Source: Flavobacteriaceae bacterium GF1 (GTDB taxonomy: Bacteria > Bacteroidota > Bacteroidia > Flavobacteriales > Flavobacteriaceae). Taken from it: a stretch of DNA of 64,000 nt. Under the pieces are notes generated by a model, which saw only the letters and a list, made by a program, of their open reading frames with translations, was not told the origin of the DNA and ran no database searches. Both the position numbers and the translations under genes were made by a program. The stretch lies in the NCBI GenBank assembly GCA_009797885.1, contig WNKP01000009.1:62001-126000 (forward strand). The letters are read 5' to 3'. How positions within the stretch are numbered: the stretch's first letter is position 1; each line of letters begins with the position of its first letter. Below, piece by piece: positions 12,609-44,262 of the stretch.

Positions 12609-13226
12609 ATGAAACGTCACCCTTTTATCCTTTTGCTATTGCTTGTGGCCATGGTTACGAAAAACAGCGCCCAAACCACCATCGAGACCTTCTCCAATAC
12701 CGATGGGATGATTATTGAGGCATGGTTTTTCAAACCCCTTACCGAAGACTACAAATTCACCATATTCAGTTTAAACGATGCCGTTATCGATTACGATACC
12801 GAAGTAACGGAATTCGTTTCCTACACCGTTTTGGGTTATGATGCCTGGAAGGGTTTTGGACCTGTCCTGGGCGGGCGTGTTTTTGATGGTCGCGCCAGCG
12901 CCCTGGCAGGTATCCAATGGAACAAGGCGGGGGAAGGGTTCCTAATTACGACCAATATTACTACCGAGGTTCGCGATGCCCCACTCTATGAGTGGTACCT
13001 ACTGGCCCAATACCGATTTCCTTTGAACCAAAAACTGGGCTTCTTTGGTCAATTCCAGAACTCAACAAATTTTGATGGCGATGGGCACCTTTTTTCGTTC
13101 CAGCGTCTAAGGGTCGGTCTCAGCGTGAAAACATTCCAGTTTGGACTGGGGCTTACCACCTACCAGTTTGGTAACGATGGGGACTTTGAGGCCGATCCAG
13201 GGATTTTTGTACGCCTTGAATTCTGA
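12609..13226 (+). CDS. Probable outer-membrane beta-barrel-like protein, unknown function
   Basis: 205 residues with signal MKRHPFILLLLLVAMV, cleaved after NSAQ. The mature protein is made of alternating short amphipathic strands with many aromatic residues (WYLLAQYRFPL, FGFFGQF-like, FQFGLGLTTYQFG) and ends in a C-terminal Phe (GIFVRLEF), a common mark of outer-membrane barrels. No family recognised. It lies 80 bases after the soluble AraC gene and 67 bases before doxX on the same strand. Confidence 0.65.
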   Translation: MKRHPFILLLLLVAMVTKNSAQTTIETFSNTDGMIIEAWFFKPLTEDYKFTIFSLNDAVIDYDTEVTEFVSYTVLGYDAWKGFGPVLGGRVFDGRASALAGIQWNKAGEGFLITTNITTEVRDAPLYEWYLLAQYRFPLNQKLGFFGQFQNSTNFDGDGHLFSFQRLRVGLSVKTFQFGLGLTTYQFGNDGDFEADPGIFVRLEF

Positions 13227-13293
13227 CCCATAACACCAAAACAGGGAAATCCGGTGTACCATTAAAAAAAGTAAAAACCATAAAAATTCCAAC

Positions 13294-13758
13294 ATGAAAA
13301 ACCTCGTATTCAACACAGACAACAACTGGGCCTCACTTATTTTACGGGTAGCCTTGGGAATCATCATCCTTATCCATGGGACCACAAAACTGGGAAGCGG
13401 TTTTGCAGGGTTCGAGGGCTTTATTACCGAATATATGGGACTTCCAGTAATTGTGGCCTATACCACTGTCTTTATCGAGACTGCGGGATCAGTGATGCTT
13501 ATCCTTGGGTTTGCAACCCGAATCAATGCCGTGGCCATGTTCGGTCTTTTCGTTGGAATGATCGTCACCGTACACGGTGCCATTGGATTCCAAATGAACT
13601 GGAACGGACAGTATGACGCAGGTATGGAAGGCTATGAGTACCATTTATTGGTCCTGAGTATCTGTACCGCCCTGATGGTACTTGGTGGGGGCCGGTTCTC
13701 CGCGGACCGGACCATTCAAGGGTTGGGCCAACCTGGTTTACGAAACATTAAAAATTAA
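13294..13758 (+). CDS. DoxX family membrane protein
   Basis: 154 residues, four hydrophobic helices. The segment LILRVALGIIILIHGTTKL and GLPVIVAYTTVFIETAGSVML-type helix with a conserved Glu are the typical DoxX/SURF4-like pattern. Members are linked to thiosulfate:quinone oxidation or to redox protection, but the role of most bacterial copies is undefined. An 18-residue azoreductase-like stub follows six bases later, fitting the frequent pairing of DoxX with flavin reductases. Confidence 0.88.
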   Translation: MKNLVFNTDNNWASLILRVALGIIILIHGTTKLGSGFAGFEGFITEYMGLPVIVAYTTVFIETAGSVMLILGFATRINAVAMFGLFVGMIVTVHGAIGFQMNWNGQYDAGMEGYEYHLLVLSICTALMVLGGGRFSADRTIQGLGQPGLRNIKN

Positions 13759-40673: not shown

Positions 40674-41570
40674 ATGAACTTTATTCAGTCCTTCTGGTCG
40701 AAACCTATCTTTGATATTGAACATCGAAATAGCTGGAACTTTAGACATGATGGCGGGTTCCCCAATGCTTTTTTATTTTACAGCACTTGGGTGTATAGTT
40801 GCCTGTCCATTAAAAAGTATTATCCAAACCTACAGTTGGTAACGGATGACTATGGCATAGCCATTTTTAGGGACGCCTTACGCCTGCCCTATGTAAAGTT
40901 CTCCAACGCCTTAAATGACTTGAGTGACTATCACAAGGGGGCATGGGCCTTGGGGAAGTTGTATACCTATCAGCTCCAAAAAGAACCTTTTTGCCATATA
41001 GACGGGGACGTATTCCTTTTTGGTCCCGTCCTGGACAAAATCCTTAAGGCTCCCGTATTCGCCCAGAGTTTTGATCTTGACATGAAAGTGTATTCCGAAA
41101 TACATCCCTACGTCCATGAAAACTTTAGAAACGTCCCCGATGAATTTCAACTCGAGGAATTGGAGGGCCCACGACAGTTAAAACTGATCAATGCGGGTGT
41201 CATCGGGGGAAATGAATTGGAGGTTTTCCAACGGTACACGTCCAGGGCTTTTGAACTTGTTGACAACAACCAGGATAAGATAGGGGGTATTAACGGGGGT
41301 ATTTTCAACCTGTACTACGAGCAATTTTTACTGAGCAATATTGTATATCGCTATAATGTGGACCTGGCCACACTTTATGAAGAACCGGACAGTGAAATTG
41401 ATTTTGCGGCATTTCATAAAATACCCCATGATGCGAACTATGTGCATTTATTGAGTCATTTAAAGCTTTCCACGGCATTTTTGGAGCAGGTGGTGGCAAG
41501 ATTACAATTGGAATTTCCGGAATACTATCATCGACTATTGCAGTTTAGCAATGAACACAGCTTGGTATGA
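40674..41570 (+). CDS. DUF6734 family protein, glycosyltransferase-like
   Basis: 298 residues, no signal. MNFIQSFWSKPIF is the start of DUF6734 proteins. The stretch CHIDGDVFLFGPV contains a DxD-type motif, which in GT-A glycosyltransferases binds the metal and the nucleotide sugar. The phrase KLINAGVIGG and a Tyr-rich tail support a sugar-nucleotide transferase fold. The activity is unproven. Its TGA overlaps the start of the next gene, 41567-42193, by four bases (ATGA), so the two are one unit. It is convergent with the GG-leader peptide gene 800 bases away; a link to it is possible but not shown. Confidence 0.65.
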   Translation: MNFIQSFWSKPIFDIEHRNSWNFRHDGGFPNAFLFYSTWVYSCLSIKKYYPNLQLVTDDYGIAIFRDALRLPYVKFSNALNDLSDYHKGAWALGKLYTYQLQKEPFCHIDGDVFLFGPVLDKILKAPVFAQSFDLDMKVYSEIHPYVHENFRNVPDEFQLEELEGPRQLKLINAGVIGGNELEVFQRYTSRAFELVDNNQDKIGGINGGIFNLYYEQFLLSNIVYRYNVDLATLYEEPDSEIDFAAFHKIPHDANYVHLLSHLKLSTAFLEQVVARLQLEFPEYYHRLLQFSNEHSLV

Positions 41571-42193
41571 ATACACGTAGAAACTTTCTGAACTGGATGG
41601 CTACTTTGGAGGACCCCCCAACCTCCGAAATCAGTCGTGCTACCTTTTTGAATATCCATGAAAAAAAGTACGTTTTTGACGTCTTGGAAAAGTTGCAGGA
41701 TGTCAATGGCAATCCCAGGGCAATGCTATTGGATTATTACCATCTGGAGCAACAGCGATACCACATTTTTGAATCCCATACCCTGGATGAAAGGTTAGCC
41801 GTCAATCGTTTGGCTTCGGCCATTGCATTTTGTGCCAAATCCGATGATGAAAAGCGGAAAAGCCGTTTTAGGATGAATCTTTCCATCTCCAATTACGTCG
41901 CGGAAAGCACCTTTTTTTGGGATGTTGACGACATCGCCAATATTGCGCCCAAAACGACGCATTATTTATTTGTACCAAGTTTTCTCCCAATTGCCCCCAA
42001 GGAAATCTGCTTAACAGGCTTGCAAGCCCTTTTGTTGGATATCATGAGCTATGAAAATGAGTTTACGTACCAAGAGTTTTTTGGGCTTGTCAAAGAAACT
42101 TTGGATTTACCCCCTGAACAATTGGATAGCGCCCTACTTGAATTTATGGAAAAACAAAGCCTTTATTTCGGGACCATATTGGCTTTGGATTAA
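41567..42193 (+). CDS. Cytosolic protein of unknown function, coupled to the DUF6734 gene
   Basis: 208 residues, no signal and no membrane helix. Start ATG at 41567 overlaps the DUF6734 stop by four bases, so they are co-translated. The N-terminal 100 residues are helical and polar (RATFLNIHEKKYVFDVLEKL), the rest mixed, with TTHYLFVPSFLPIAPKEICL and a final helix rich in Leu and Glu. No motif or family recognised. It is followed after about 45 bases by a microsatellite. Confidence 0.65.
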   Translation: MNTRRNFLNWMATLEDPPTSEISRATFLNIHEKKYVFDVLEKLQDVNGNPRAMLLDYYHLEQQRYHIFESHTLDERLAVNRLASAIAFCAKSDDEKRKSRFRMNLSISNYVAESTFFWDVDDIANIAPKTTHYLFVPSFLPIAPKEICLTGLQALLLDIMSYENEFTYQEFFGLVKETLDLPPEQLDSALLEFMEKQSLYFGTILALD

Positions 42194-42227
42194 CGGGAAC
42201 TGAACAAGAGCTGGTTCTGGTTATTGG

Positions 42228-42285
42228 TTACTGGCCACTGGCTACTGGCTACTGGCTACTGGCTACTGGCTACTGGCTACTGGGG
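42228..42285. repeat. Seven-base microsatellite ACTGGCT
   Basis: Six perfect copies of ACTGGCT (42237-42278) plus a partial copy (ACTGG, to 42283), preceded by degenerate units such as GGTTACTGGCC from 42225. It sits between the 3' end of the 41567 gene and the terminator of the peptide gene. Such runs change length by strand slippage. Confidence 0.9.
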
Positions 42286-42325
42286 ATAAGCAATCGTTTT
42301 TCCGTGCCTGGTCCAAAATAAAAAA

Positions 42326-42358
42326 GTTCAAAGTTTACAGCATATGCAAACTTTGAAC
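42326..42358 (-). terminator. Rho-independent terminator of the GG-leader peptide gene
   Basis: Stem GTTCAAAGTTT (42326-42336) pairs with 42348-42358, with an 11-base loop. On the minus strand six T residues follow (revcomp of 42320-42325). It begins 30 bases after the stop codon of the peptide. Confidence 0.82.
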
Positions 42359-42388
42359 TCCTTTGAATTCCCTTTGGGCACCTGCTAT

Positions 42389-42532
42389 CTACGAGCAGCA
42401 ATCTGCCCCAGGGTTCACGTACATGCAGTAGTAAGGTGGACACCGGTAGCCTGGGAACCCTCCAGAAATGTCCTTCAATTTTGAATCATTCAATTTTTGA
42501 TTCTTGAGGTTTTTTAAACTCAATTTTTCCAT
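42389..42532 (-). CDS. GG-leader cysteine-rich precursor peptide (RiPP or bacteriocin-like)
   Basis: 47 residues, unlisted because of size. Residues 1-25 form a leader: MEKLSLKNLKNQKLNDSKLK followed by DIS and Gly24-Gly25. A double-Gly end and the Lys/Leu-rich start match the Bacteroidota GG-leader natural-product precursors. The 22-residue core (26-47) starts FPGYR and has Cys at 31, 36, 45 and 46, with PPYY between the first two and CC just before the final Ser. Such a core could form two disulfides or be cyclised. It lies 164 bases downstream of the C39-like/VKOR/thioredoxin gene on the same strand and ends before a terminator. A GAGGAG run about 22 bases upstream of the ATG is a distant possible SD. 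Confidence 0.78.
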   Translation of the reverse strand: MEKLSLKNLKNQKLNDSKLKDISGGFPGYRCPPYYCMYVNPGADCCS

Positions 42533-42696
42533 TGCATATAATTTTAATAATTCTCCTCTTTTTCAATATGGGGCTTCGGAGATTTGCCTGAAATTATATG
42601 CTAAAAATACTAATTTTGTAAGTTTTTTCCTACTTTTCTGAATGCTGGAAAATCACAATTAACAATTACCTTCATTTTGTTAACGATACGTTTACC

Positions 42697-44262
42697 TTAT
42701 GCGCTAACTGCTTCAATATCATTTTCTTCCACAGTTTTCATGAAATCGTTTATGAACGAAGCATCATAGAATTCCGGGATCACATAATCGTCTATGAGCC
42801 ATATGGGTGTATGGAACAAGGCATTGTCTTTGCACCAATCCCTTTGCGCCCATAACACGGTATAATTTTCGTCCTTAAGATGCCCATGGTATTTTTCCAA
42901 ATACGCACTATCCTTGGGACGGGAGAACCAATCATCCGTTTTTTGGAGCAGCGTTTCGAATCCTTCCGCTCTGCAGATTTGAATTAAATTGGCAGCGACT
43001 GCATTGCGCTTTGAGTTGGTTACTTCGTAGTGGTTAAAAATGATTTGAAACCCATACTTGCCCTTATTTTCCCGATAATACGCGTAGAACATGGCAAAGG
43101 CATCTTTGCAATATTTACAGGAAGTGGACAAAACCAAGCGAACAATATGTTCGGCATCCCTGTTACTGGATTCCAATGGGTTGTCTCCTTCCGAGGATGT
43201 AATCCGATCACCATTGGACAGGAGAAGGGAAATGATTTTAGAGGAACGCTTAAACCTTAATAAGTCTATTTGATCCAAGGCAAGCCCATGATTCATTTTT
43301 CTAAGCTTTCTGGAGTGAAATATGATGAACAACGCTATCACATACAGGAGGCCGAAAACGGATACTTCTCTGAGGCTCTCCCATAGGGGTTCCAAGACGA
43401 GTATTGTTTCCTGGGAAGATGTGCCCACTAAAACAATCAGTGCTTGCAGTACAACCAACAAACTGGATAACAGGCATAACCTGCACCAACTTTTCGCGAT
43501 AAACTTTTGAATGAACACCGTAGTCATAACCGCAGCGATGGCCATGGCATATACTGCAACGTGCATGAAATTGAACGAAGGGTAAAACAGGGTAAAAACG
43601 AGGGTGGTTGCAAAAAAGGAGAAGAGGATATCATTAAGGGAAAATAGGGATATGTTGTACTTAACGGAACCCAGTATCTCATGACAGCCGTTTTGCTTTT
43701 CATCCCCGCAGACTTTTGCCCCCAGGATAGAACCCATATTATTGCTTGTCTTAAATATTTCTTCGGAAAGCATAAGTCCCAAAATCCCGATCAAGCAAAA
43801 AAATAGGGCTTGGATTCCTGGCCAGACCAATAGGGTACATATCATGACCAAAAGCATGACCAGTCCTTTTTGCCAAAATGTCCTTTGGACCTTAGTGCTA
43901 TCTTCTTGCTCCGCAATGAGCAGTATCCCATCCCACCGTTTACAAAAATCCTCTTTTGAAATACTGTCCTTGTGATCGGCCAGATGAACCCTGTTCCCGG
44001 ATTGGTGTACATGGGCAAAATATCCATTTTCATTCTCATCCCGTAAAAAGGCAATAAAATTGCTAGGCAAAAATTCCAATTGCCCATGCTCCACCTGTGC
44101 GGCAACATTTTCTATTTTTAGAAATGTTAGGGTCTCTGCCACCGCGTATAGGGAAGGGGTATGTGGGTGACTGAACAGTTGGAGCCTTAGTTCATCCTGG
44201 GATATTTCTATTTTTTCAGCATTGAAATAACTTATGAGGGCTTTAAAAAGTACTTCATCCAT
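42697..44262 (-). CDS. Fusion of C39-like domain, VKOR domain and thioredoxin/DsbA-like domain
   Basis: 521 residues. Residues 1-120 look like a peptidase C39 fold: SHPHTPSLYAVAETLTFLKI then FIAFLRDENENGYFAHVHQ and NRVHLADHKD, with His 84 and Asp 96 in the right places but without the catalytic Cys. Residues 130-320 hold a VKOR domain with four or five helices: loop Cys 185 and Cys 193, active CxxC WCRLC (260, 263). Residues 370-515 are a thioredoxin/DsbA-like domain with SCKYC (382, 385) and cis-Pro in HTPIW (486). VKOR oxidises the thiol partner, here fused. With the Cys-rich GG peptide next door, disulfide formation on the core after leader binding is the obvious idea. No ABC exporter is in the window. 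Confidence 0.85.
   Translation of the reverse strand: MDEVLFKALISYFNAEKIEISQDELRLQLFSHPHTPSLYAVAETLTFLKIENVAAQVEHGQLEFLPSNFIAFLRDENENGYFAHVHQSGNRVHLADHKDSISKEDFCKRWDGILLIAEQEDSTKVQRTFWQKGLVMLLVMICTLLVWPGIQALFFCLIGILGLMLSEEIFKTSNNMGSILGAKVCGDEKQNGCHEILGSVKYNISLFSLNDILFSFFATTLVFTLFYPSFNFMHVAVYAMAIAAVMTTVFIQKFIAKSWCRLCLLSSLLVVLQALIVLVGTSSQETILVLEPLWESLREVSVFGLLYVIALFIIFHSRKLRKMNHGLALDQIDLLRFKRSSKIISLLLSNGDRITSSEGDNPLESSNRDAEHIVRLVLSTSCKYCKDAFAMFYAYYRENKGKYGFQIIFNHYEVTNSKRNAVAANLIQICRAEGFETLLQKTDDWFSRPKDSAYLEKYHGHLKDENYTVLWAQRDWCKDNALFHTPIWLIDDYVIPEFYDASFINDFMKTVEENDIEAVSA

Follow-up and report, generated by a model that had tools for sequence, protein, structure and literature searches.

Four-Cys peptides with a Gly-Gly (GG) leader are already described from Bacteroidota as the bacteroidetocins (class IIf), and the locus analyzed here shares these features with them. 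In the available portions of two accounts (Coyne et al. 2019, PMC6671954; PMC8546649), bacteroidetocin clusters hold a gene for a thiol oxidoreductase (for instance EH213_1843), the deletion of which attenuates activity and which by its description can be likened to the fusion protein of our locus. The C39-ABC exporter that serves as maturing partner lies within the bacteroidetocin cluster, whereas the putative partner of our system is encoded elsewhere in the genome. Bacteroidetocin leaders of 15–16 aa and mature peptides of 42–53 aa contrast with the 25 and 22 residues seen here, and where those clusters have a five-TM protein and an adjacent exporter, ours has a DUF6734 protein and a 208-aa protein, c2. 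In leader and core lengths and in the lack of an adjacent exporter, our peptide departs from the bacteroidetocins.

Glycocins (sublancin, glycocin F, thermoglycocin) likewise combine a disulfide-rich peptide, in most cases behind a GG leader, with thioredoxin-like proteins and a glycosyltransferase. As far as the available text of the source goes (PMC12457901), their thiol oxidoreductases are separate proteins and a PCAT stands in the cluster, while our locus has a single fusion and an exporter elsewhere; their glycosyltransferases are of the SunS/GccA type, whereas DUF6734 matched no Pfam glycosyltransferase family. The VKOR-DsbA/thioredoxin fusions of Synechococcus and Clostridium resemble our fusion in joining a four-Cys VKOR to a DsbA-like domain. 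The excerpted source gives them general periplasmic substrates, in contrast to a fusion with an extra first TM helix and predicted cytoplasmic active sites (PMC12453122). Finally, the C39-like domains (CLD) of type I exporters such as HlyB have the C39 fold, lack the catalytic Cys and recruit substrate (PMC6363468, available part); a CLD sits on an ABC exporter, and the C39-like domain described below sits on an oxidoreductase. The open-licence literature, as searched, yielded no account of the fusion, of DUF6734, of these peptides, or of a system joining VKOR to C39, RiPPs or bacteriocins. An earlier sequence-only reading of this DNA had called the system little described, which fits that literature but has to be tempered, given that a four-Cys peptide behind a GG leader already occurs together with a 'thiol oxidoreductase' in the bacteroidetocins, by the accessible text.

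The locus lies in a 64,000-nucleotide stretch of DNA from Flavobacteriaceae bacterium GF1 (contig WNKP01000009.1; hereafter the window). On the minus strand, the gene for the fusion (42697–44262) is followed by the precursor peptide gene (42389–42532) and then by a terminator-like hairpin with a U tract (42320–42364). The peptide gene is an ORF of 47 aa comprising a 25-residue leader with Gly-Gly at 24–25 and a 22-residue core with Cys at 31, 36, 45, and 46. Our reading of the ORF agrees exactly with the sequence-only reading in gene length, leader, core, and Cys positions. That reading had also assigned the gene its own terminator, and the hairpin 3′ of the gene, on the same strand, supports this: it has a folding energy of −22.3 kcal/mol (z −7.94), and 0 of 200 shuffles were as stable. 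A consensus terminator scan of the window did not list the hairpin. Between c2 and the terminator, positions 42211–42283 carry about 10 copies of a seven-base tandem repeat that is absent from the aligned stretch of a close relative (L024). Compared with L024, the peptide gene differs at 0 of 144 nt and the fusion gene at 127 of 1566 (8%). Coding constraint alone may not explain the identity of the peptide gene, as the ~79 bases upstream of it are equally unchanged (identical stretch 42389–42611).

The fusion is a 521-aa protein made up of a C39-like domain (~1–121), a VKOR domain with six predicted TM helices in all, and a DsbA/thioredoxin-like domain (~365–512). Its redox Cys are at 185/193, at a CxxC at 260/263, and at a second CxxC at 382/385, so that coordinates, VKOR Cys, and the CxxC of the thioredoxin-like domain are all as first proposed. 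The VKOR signature of two loop Cys and a CxxC in a TM helix is present, and all six redox Cys, including VKOR C185, C193, C260, and C263, are kept in 56 of 56 fusions. Taken alone, the window fusion scores 26.3 bits against the C39 family (Pfam PF03412; cut-off 22) and falls below the cut-offs for VKOR (10.4 bits; 27.5) and Thioredoxin_4 (15.2 bits; 23.2). Among 18 aligned fusions, that of the window included, matches at E ≤ 0.01 were obtained for VKOR in 16, Thioredoxin_4 in 13, and C39 in 13. A profile of the 18 found the C39 domain of PCAT1 (E 1e-7), VKOR structures (3e-4 to 3e-3), and DsbA-like structures (best 5e-9) in the PDB; a phmmer search of the PDB with the VKOR part of one paralogue gave no match. 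To our knowledge, neither glycocin thiol oxidoreductases nor VKOR-DsbA/thioredoxin fusions carry a C39-like domain.

In hhalign, the N-terminal domain of the fusions matched the C39 domains of 35 exporters encoded in the fusion loci with a probability of 97.9 (E 4e-13). This result, together with the PF03412 match, upholds the assignment of the domain as C39-like. The alignment spans the region after the catalytic Cys, the Cys-bearing segment lying outside the aligned domain, which bears out the proposed loss of that residue. The accompanying claim that the His is retained is not right, since the profile alignment places the catalytic His opposite Tyr81 of the window fusion, a position that varies across the family. 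With catalytic Cys and His both lost, the domain is predicted to be protease-dead.

A search of contigs for relatives of the fusion gave 13 loci. Nine of these carry fusions with 42–92% identity to that of the window and the other four only 24–26%; the nine and the window form one clade (support 1.0), which we refer to as window-type. Their hosts are Croceivirga, Allomuricauda, Ulvibacterium (among them U. marinum, L029), and further Flavobacteriaceae. A sister peptide gene is present in 10 of 10 window-type loci, 11 genes in total, as L028 has two, one of them (13165–13377) encoding a precursor with a doubled core of two C-YYC-VNP-CC units. The core motif C-x(3)-YC-x(2)-VNP-x-A-x-CC is common to all 10 loci. 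Invariant across the 11 peptides are M1, K3, L4, L6, N8, L9, Q12, and G24 in the leader and Y29, C31, Y35, C36, V39, N40, P41, A43, C45, and C46 in the core; three of the 11 have an odd number of Cys (5, 5, and 9). In a census of 299 genomes of the family, scoring up to 22 candidates per genome, a peptide profile matched at E < 1e-15 in five (G000, G028, G135, G153, and G249), the same five that hold a window-type fusion. All five, the window's genome and four others, had contributed to the profile, so what the census adds is the lack of a strong match in any other of the 299 genomes. Weak matches (E 0.001–0.01) occurred in six further genomes; those of G171, G176, and G186 adjoin other fusions and the remaining three do not.

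The fusion extends well beyond this clade. Scoring up to four candidates per genome, we found it at E < 1e-100 at no fewer than 55 places in at least 40 of the 299 genomes (the 78-genome tally of the same census also counts genomes in which just the C39 domain of an exporter matched). It is often multicopy within a genome, the copies having peptides of their own. Neighborhoods were analyzed for 55 fusions in 54 loci, made up of 52 of the 55 census places and three further places; the other three census places are window-type and were examined with the 10 loci above. A fixed rule asked for an ORF with a GG or GA leader and three or more core Cys, no more than 3 kb from the fusion. Of the 55 fusions, 46 had such an ORF, at least one of the 46 (L067) looking spurious by eye, and 36 of 55 had a C39-ABC exporter within 5.5 kb. 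Forty control regions of 12 kb from arbitrary places in the same genomes gave three hits to the same rule, none with a credible leader. Nine fusions lacked a rule-defined ORF within 3 kb; one of these, in L094, has a four-Cys GG peptide, recognized by eye, 3.5 kb away. Core Cys numbers were even in 62 of 72 distinct rule-defined ORFs (4 Cys in 23, 6 in 35, 8 in 2, 10 in 1, and 12 in 1) and odd in the rest (3 Cys in 3, 5 in 6, and 9 in 1).

In a scan of 395 genomes of the phylum, with up to three candidates scored per genome, at least 41 had a fusion match at E ≤ 1e-20. Twenty phylum loci, 17 of them outside the order, had a rule-defined ORF in 15 and an exporter in nine, counted anywhere in a stretch of up to 12 kb; the control regions belong to the 55-fusion set only. 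Taken together, the comparisons argue that the pairing of peptide and fusion is not due to chance. The sequence-only reading had paired a GG-leader, Cys-rich peptide with a dedicated disulfide-forming fusion and had called for a search for such peptides beside homologous fusions; comparative genomics strongly supports the pairing, both in the window-type loci and in the fusions at large. Searching plasmids gave seven records, annotated as 'vitamin K epoxide reductase family protein' (six) and 'thioredoxin domain-containing protein' (one). A Parabacteroides distasonis plasmid (L183, NZ_OY725771.1, 4071–8731) carries a Cys-rich GG peptide, a C39-like ORF, a VKOR-thioredoxin ORF, and a galactosyltransferase-related gene. 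We gave up the idea that one ORF of this pair encodes a soluble C39-like protein in its own right: the two overlap in different frames, the second being open upstream with an extra TM helix, and hence look like one gene in two frames. Decayed copies (an interrupted fusion, DUF6734 remnants, and a fusion fragment) were seen at L013/L018 (G002), L095 (G006), and G000:C61:19138–19344.

The family profile of the fusion has six hydrophobic segments. VKOR-DsbA/thioredoxin fusions typically have five TM helices, and the first segment here (~134–150), present in 56 of 56 fusions, has no counterpart in the alignment to solved VKORs. Lys and Arg have a density of 0.183 on one side of the membrane, where the N end, the thioredoxin linker, and the two redox sites lie, against 0.036 on the other, and each of the 56 fusions shows a bias of the same sign. 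The comparison is weakened by the shortness of two of the three loops on the poorer side, but in all 56 the loop that joins the last two helices, with a mean length of 13 residues, is by itself poorer in Lys and Arg than the linker. As a control, 35 exporters had 3.7–4.9 Lys/Arg before the first TM helix and 0.0–0.8 after it, matching the known topology; this simple method did not separate their later helices cleanly. By the positive-inside rule, we predict from this distribution that both redox sites face the cytoplasm, inverted relative to an ordinary VKOR, in which case the leader would still be attached when they act. Hibender et al. (2017) are said to have described a VKOR working in two compartments in Aeropyrum pernix.

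Two further genes lie on the plus strand, one for a 298-aa DUF6734 protein (40674–41570; PF20508, 1.4e-92) and one for c2 (41567–42193), which overlaps it by 4 bp and has no Pfam match. Both are present in 10 of 10 window-type loci and belong to the module, and the earlier description of the system as minimal did not hold. They are convergent to the peptide gene in the window and three relatives. In the other six loci they follow the fusion on the same strand, four of these with a 4-bp overlap, which suggests that the fusion, DUF6734, and c2 make up a single operon, rearranged in the branch of the window. Among the DUF6734 loci retrieved from beyond the window-type clade, none held a homologue of c2 at E ≤ 10, and the AF2 model of c2 was poor (pLDDT 43).

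Fourteen DUF6734 genes score above cut-off in the 299 genomes (15 matches, two being pieces of one gene). Seven have an intact fusion no more than 10 kb away, one adjoins a fusion fragment (G329), one is a remnant ~10 kb from a fusion (G006), and five have no fusion nearby. One of these five (L084, G249:C26, 3356–6921) adjoins a LanC-like gene, together with a Cys-rich peptide whose score against a leader model for class I lanthipeptides falls narrowly short. In another family of the same class, a 526-aa DUF6734 protein adjoins a fusion (L218). The AF2 model of DUF6734 was moderate (pLDDT 67, pTM 0.73). With this model as query, 48 of the 50 matches listed by Foldseek were glycosyltransferases, glycogenin foremost, the best having an E of only 0.015. 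The motif D110-G-D112 is invariant in the 10 window-type proteins, and DGD or DND occurs in the same context in at least six of eight more distant ones. Membership in GT8 by sequence was considered and rejected: hhalign gave E 0.26 against a GT8 protein and 0.13 against its reversed sequence, so that the comparison gives no sequence support. GT8 is rare in the relatives (2 of 40 genomes). Whether DUF6734 is a GT-A glycosyltransferase, as the fold search and the DxD motif suggest, seems to us evenly balanced.

The fusion is the only C39 match on the window's contig, which thus has no C39-ABC exporter adjacent to the peptide, and none of 15 radical SAM matches in the genome falls on that contig. 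The sequence-only reading had noted that neither kind of protein is present. This stands for the contig, but not as a limit of the system, as three C39-ABC exporters are encoded on other contigs of the same genome. Likewise, 10 of 10 window-type genomes encode elsewhere a C39 domain in a frame of more than 700 aa, which we read as a C39-ABC exporter. One exporter of the window's genome belongs to a complete second cluster (L094, G000:C4, 3257–13823), which contains a fusion paralogue, DUF6734, a weakly DUF6734-like gene, a Glyco_transf_7C protein, a four-Cys GG peptide, and HlyD. The second (C44) stands with Cys-free GG peptides. The third (L191, G000:C22, 3841–7366) is accompanied by a gene resembling HlyD; neither a GG peptide nor a fusion was noticed around it, and this exporter is the likeliest candidate for a partner in trans of the window peptide.

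We consider it probable that these genes constitute a four-gene module for peptide maturation, with leader docking, disulfide formation, a second modification, and export in trans. As the sequence-only reading had suggested, the protease-dead C39-like domain of the fusion would recognize the GG leader; we place this step before export. C39 recognition calls for hydrophobic residues at leader positions −4, −7, and −12 (LahT paper, available part); all 11 window-type peptides satisfy this at −4 and −12, and nine of them at −7, where both L028 peptides have Gln. Since the leader fits this rule, a dead C39 domain could dock the precursor, although we infer rather than assert binding, because GG leaders and C39-like domains are general and position −8 of the window leader is Lys where the ComA consensus has Glu. 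The thioredoxin-like and VKOR domains would then pass electrons from the core Cys to quinone, placing two disulfides in the core (in relatives with six Cys, probably three). A second modification may come from DUF6734 and its partner c2, the former possibly a glycosyltransferase, and a C39-ABC exporter encoded elsewhere in the genome would cut after Gly-Gly and secrete the product. The latter is most likely a bacteriocin-like or signaling peptide, to which an antibacterial use may be attributed by analogy.

Other accounts of the same genes can be given. The fusion might be a general periplasmic DsbA/DsbB-like system, with the peptide a neighbor or one of many substrates. VKOR-DsbA fusions can indeed serve general folding, in that the clostridial one complements E. 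coli dsb mutants (PMC12453122, available part), and a VKOR scan of the window's genome raised only two fusion paralogues above cut-off, so that no separate VKOR is seen there. A general system would hardly be as patchy as the fusion is in the family census, often with several copies beside their own peptides; it would leave the C39-like domain without a purpose, and the charge distribution argues against periplasmic active sites. We therefore hold this account to be improbable. Still less credible, to the point of being very improbable, is that a radical SAM enzyme of the TIGR04149 type encoded elsewhere modifies the peptide and the fusion only manages the redox state of its Cys around that step. 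The leader does resemble TIGR04149, which matches nine of the 11 window-type peptides at E ≤ 0.1 (best 5e-9) and the window peptide at 22.1 bits, under the curated cut-off of 25, and some relatives may pass that cut-off; set against this is the lack of radical SAM matches on the window's contig. The NCBI models TIGR04149 and NF047798 recognize some of the leaders, and the pairing of peptide and fusion is covered by none.

A closer competitor to the proposed module, possible though we lean against it, is that the module makes a disulfide peptide bearing a sugar and acting in the manner of a glycocin, the sugar mattering as much as the disulfides. The likeness of DUF6734 to GT-A enzymes and its invariant DGD speak for such a product, as do the Glyco_transf_7C proteins that adjoin the fusion in the C4 cluster of the same genome and in a Parabacteroides cluster, and the union of glycosyltransferase, thioredoxin-like proteins, and PCAT in glycocin clusters (PMC12457901, available part). 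Yet only four of the 54 fetched fusion loci have an intact DUF6734 (L054, L065, L094, and L100), with a remnant in L095, from which it follows that a sugar is not general to the fusion. The glycosyltransferase assignment is itself weak, given the Foldseek E value and the GT8 comparison, and the cores of the 11 window-type peptides share no invariant Ser or Thr. Within the maturation module that we favor, a bolder version is conceivable, in which an inverted VKOR-thioredoxin with an extra TM helix docks precursors through its dead C39 domain and forms disulfides before export, DUF6734 founds, in the window-type branch, a new family of glycosyltransferases acting on peptides, and the whole is a distinct class of Bacteroidota peptides; in this full form we find it doubtful.

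If the proposed module is real, many Bacteroidota genomes carry clusters for disulfide peptides whose short precursor genes are easily missed. The fusion, as an apparent leader-guided oxidase, would be usable for making disulfide-rich peptides, and it would offer a clean test of whether a disulfide can enter a precursor before export. DUF6734, at present a family of unknown function, would gain a testable role.
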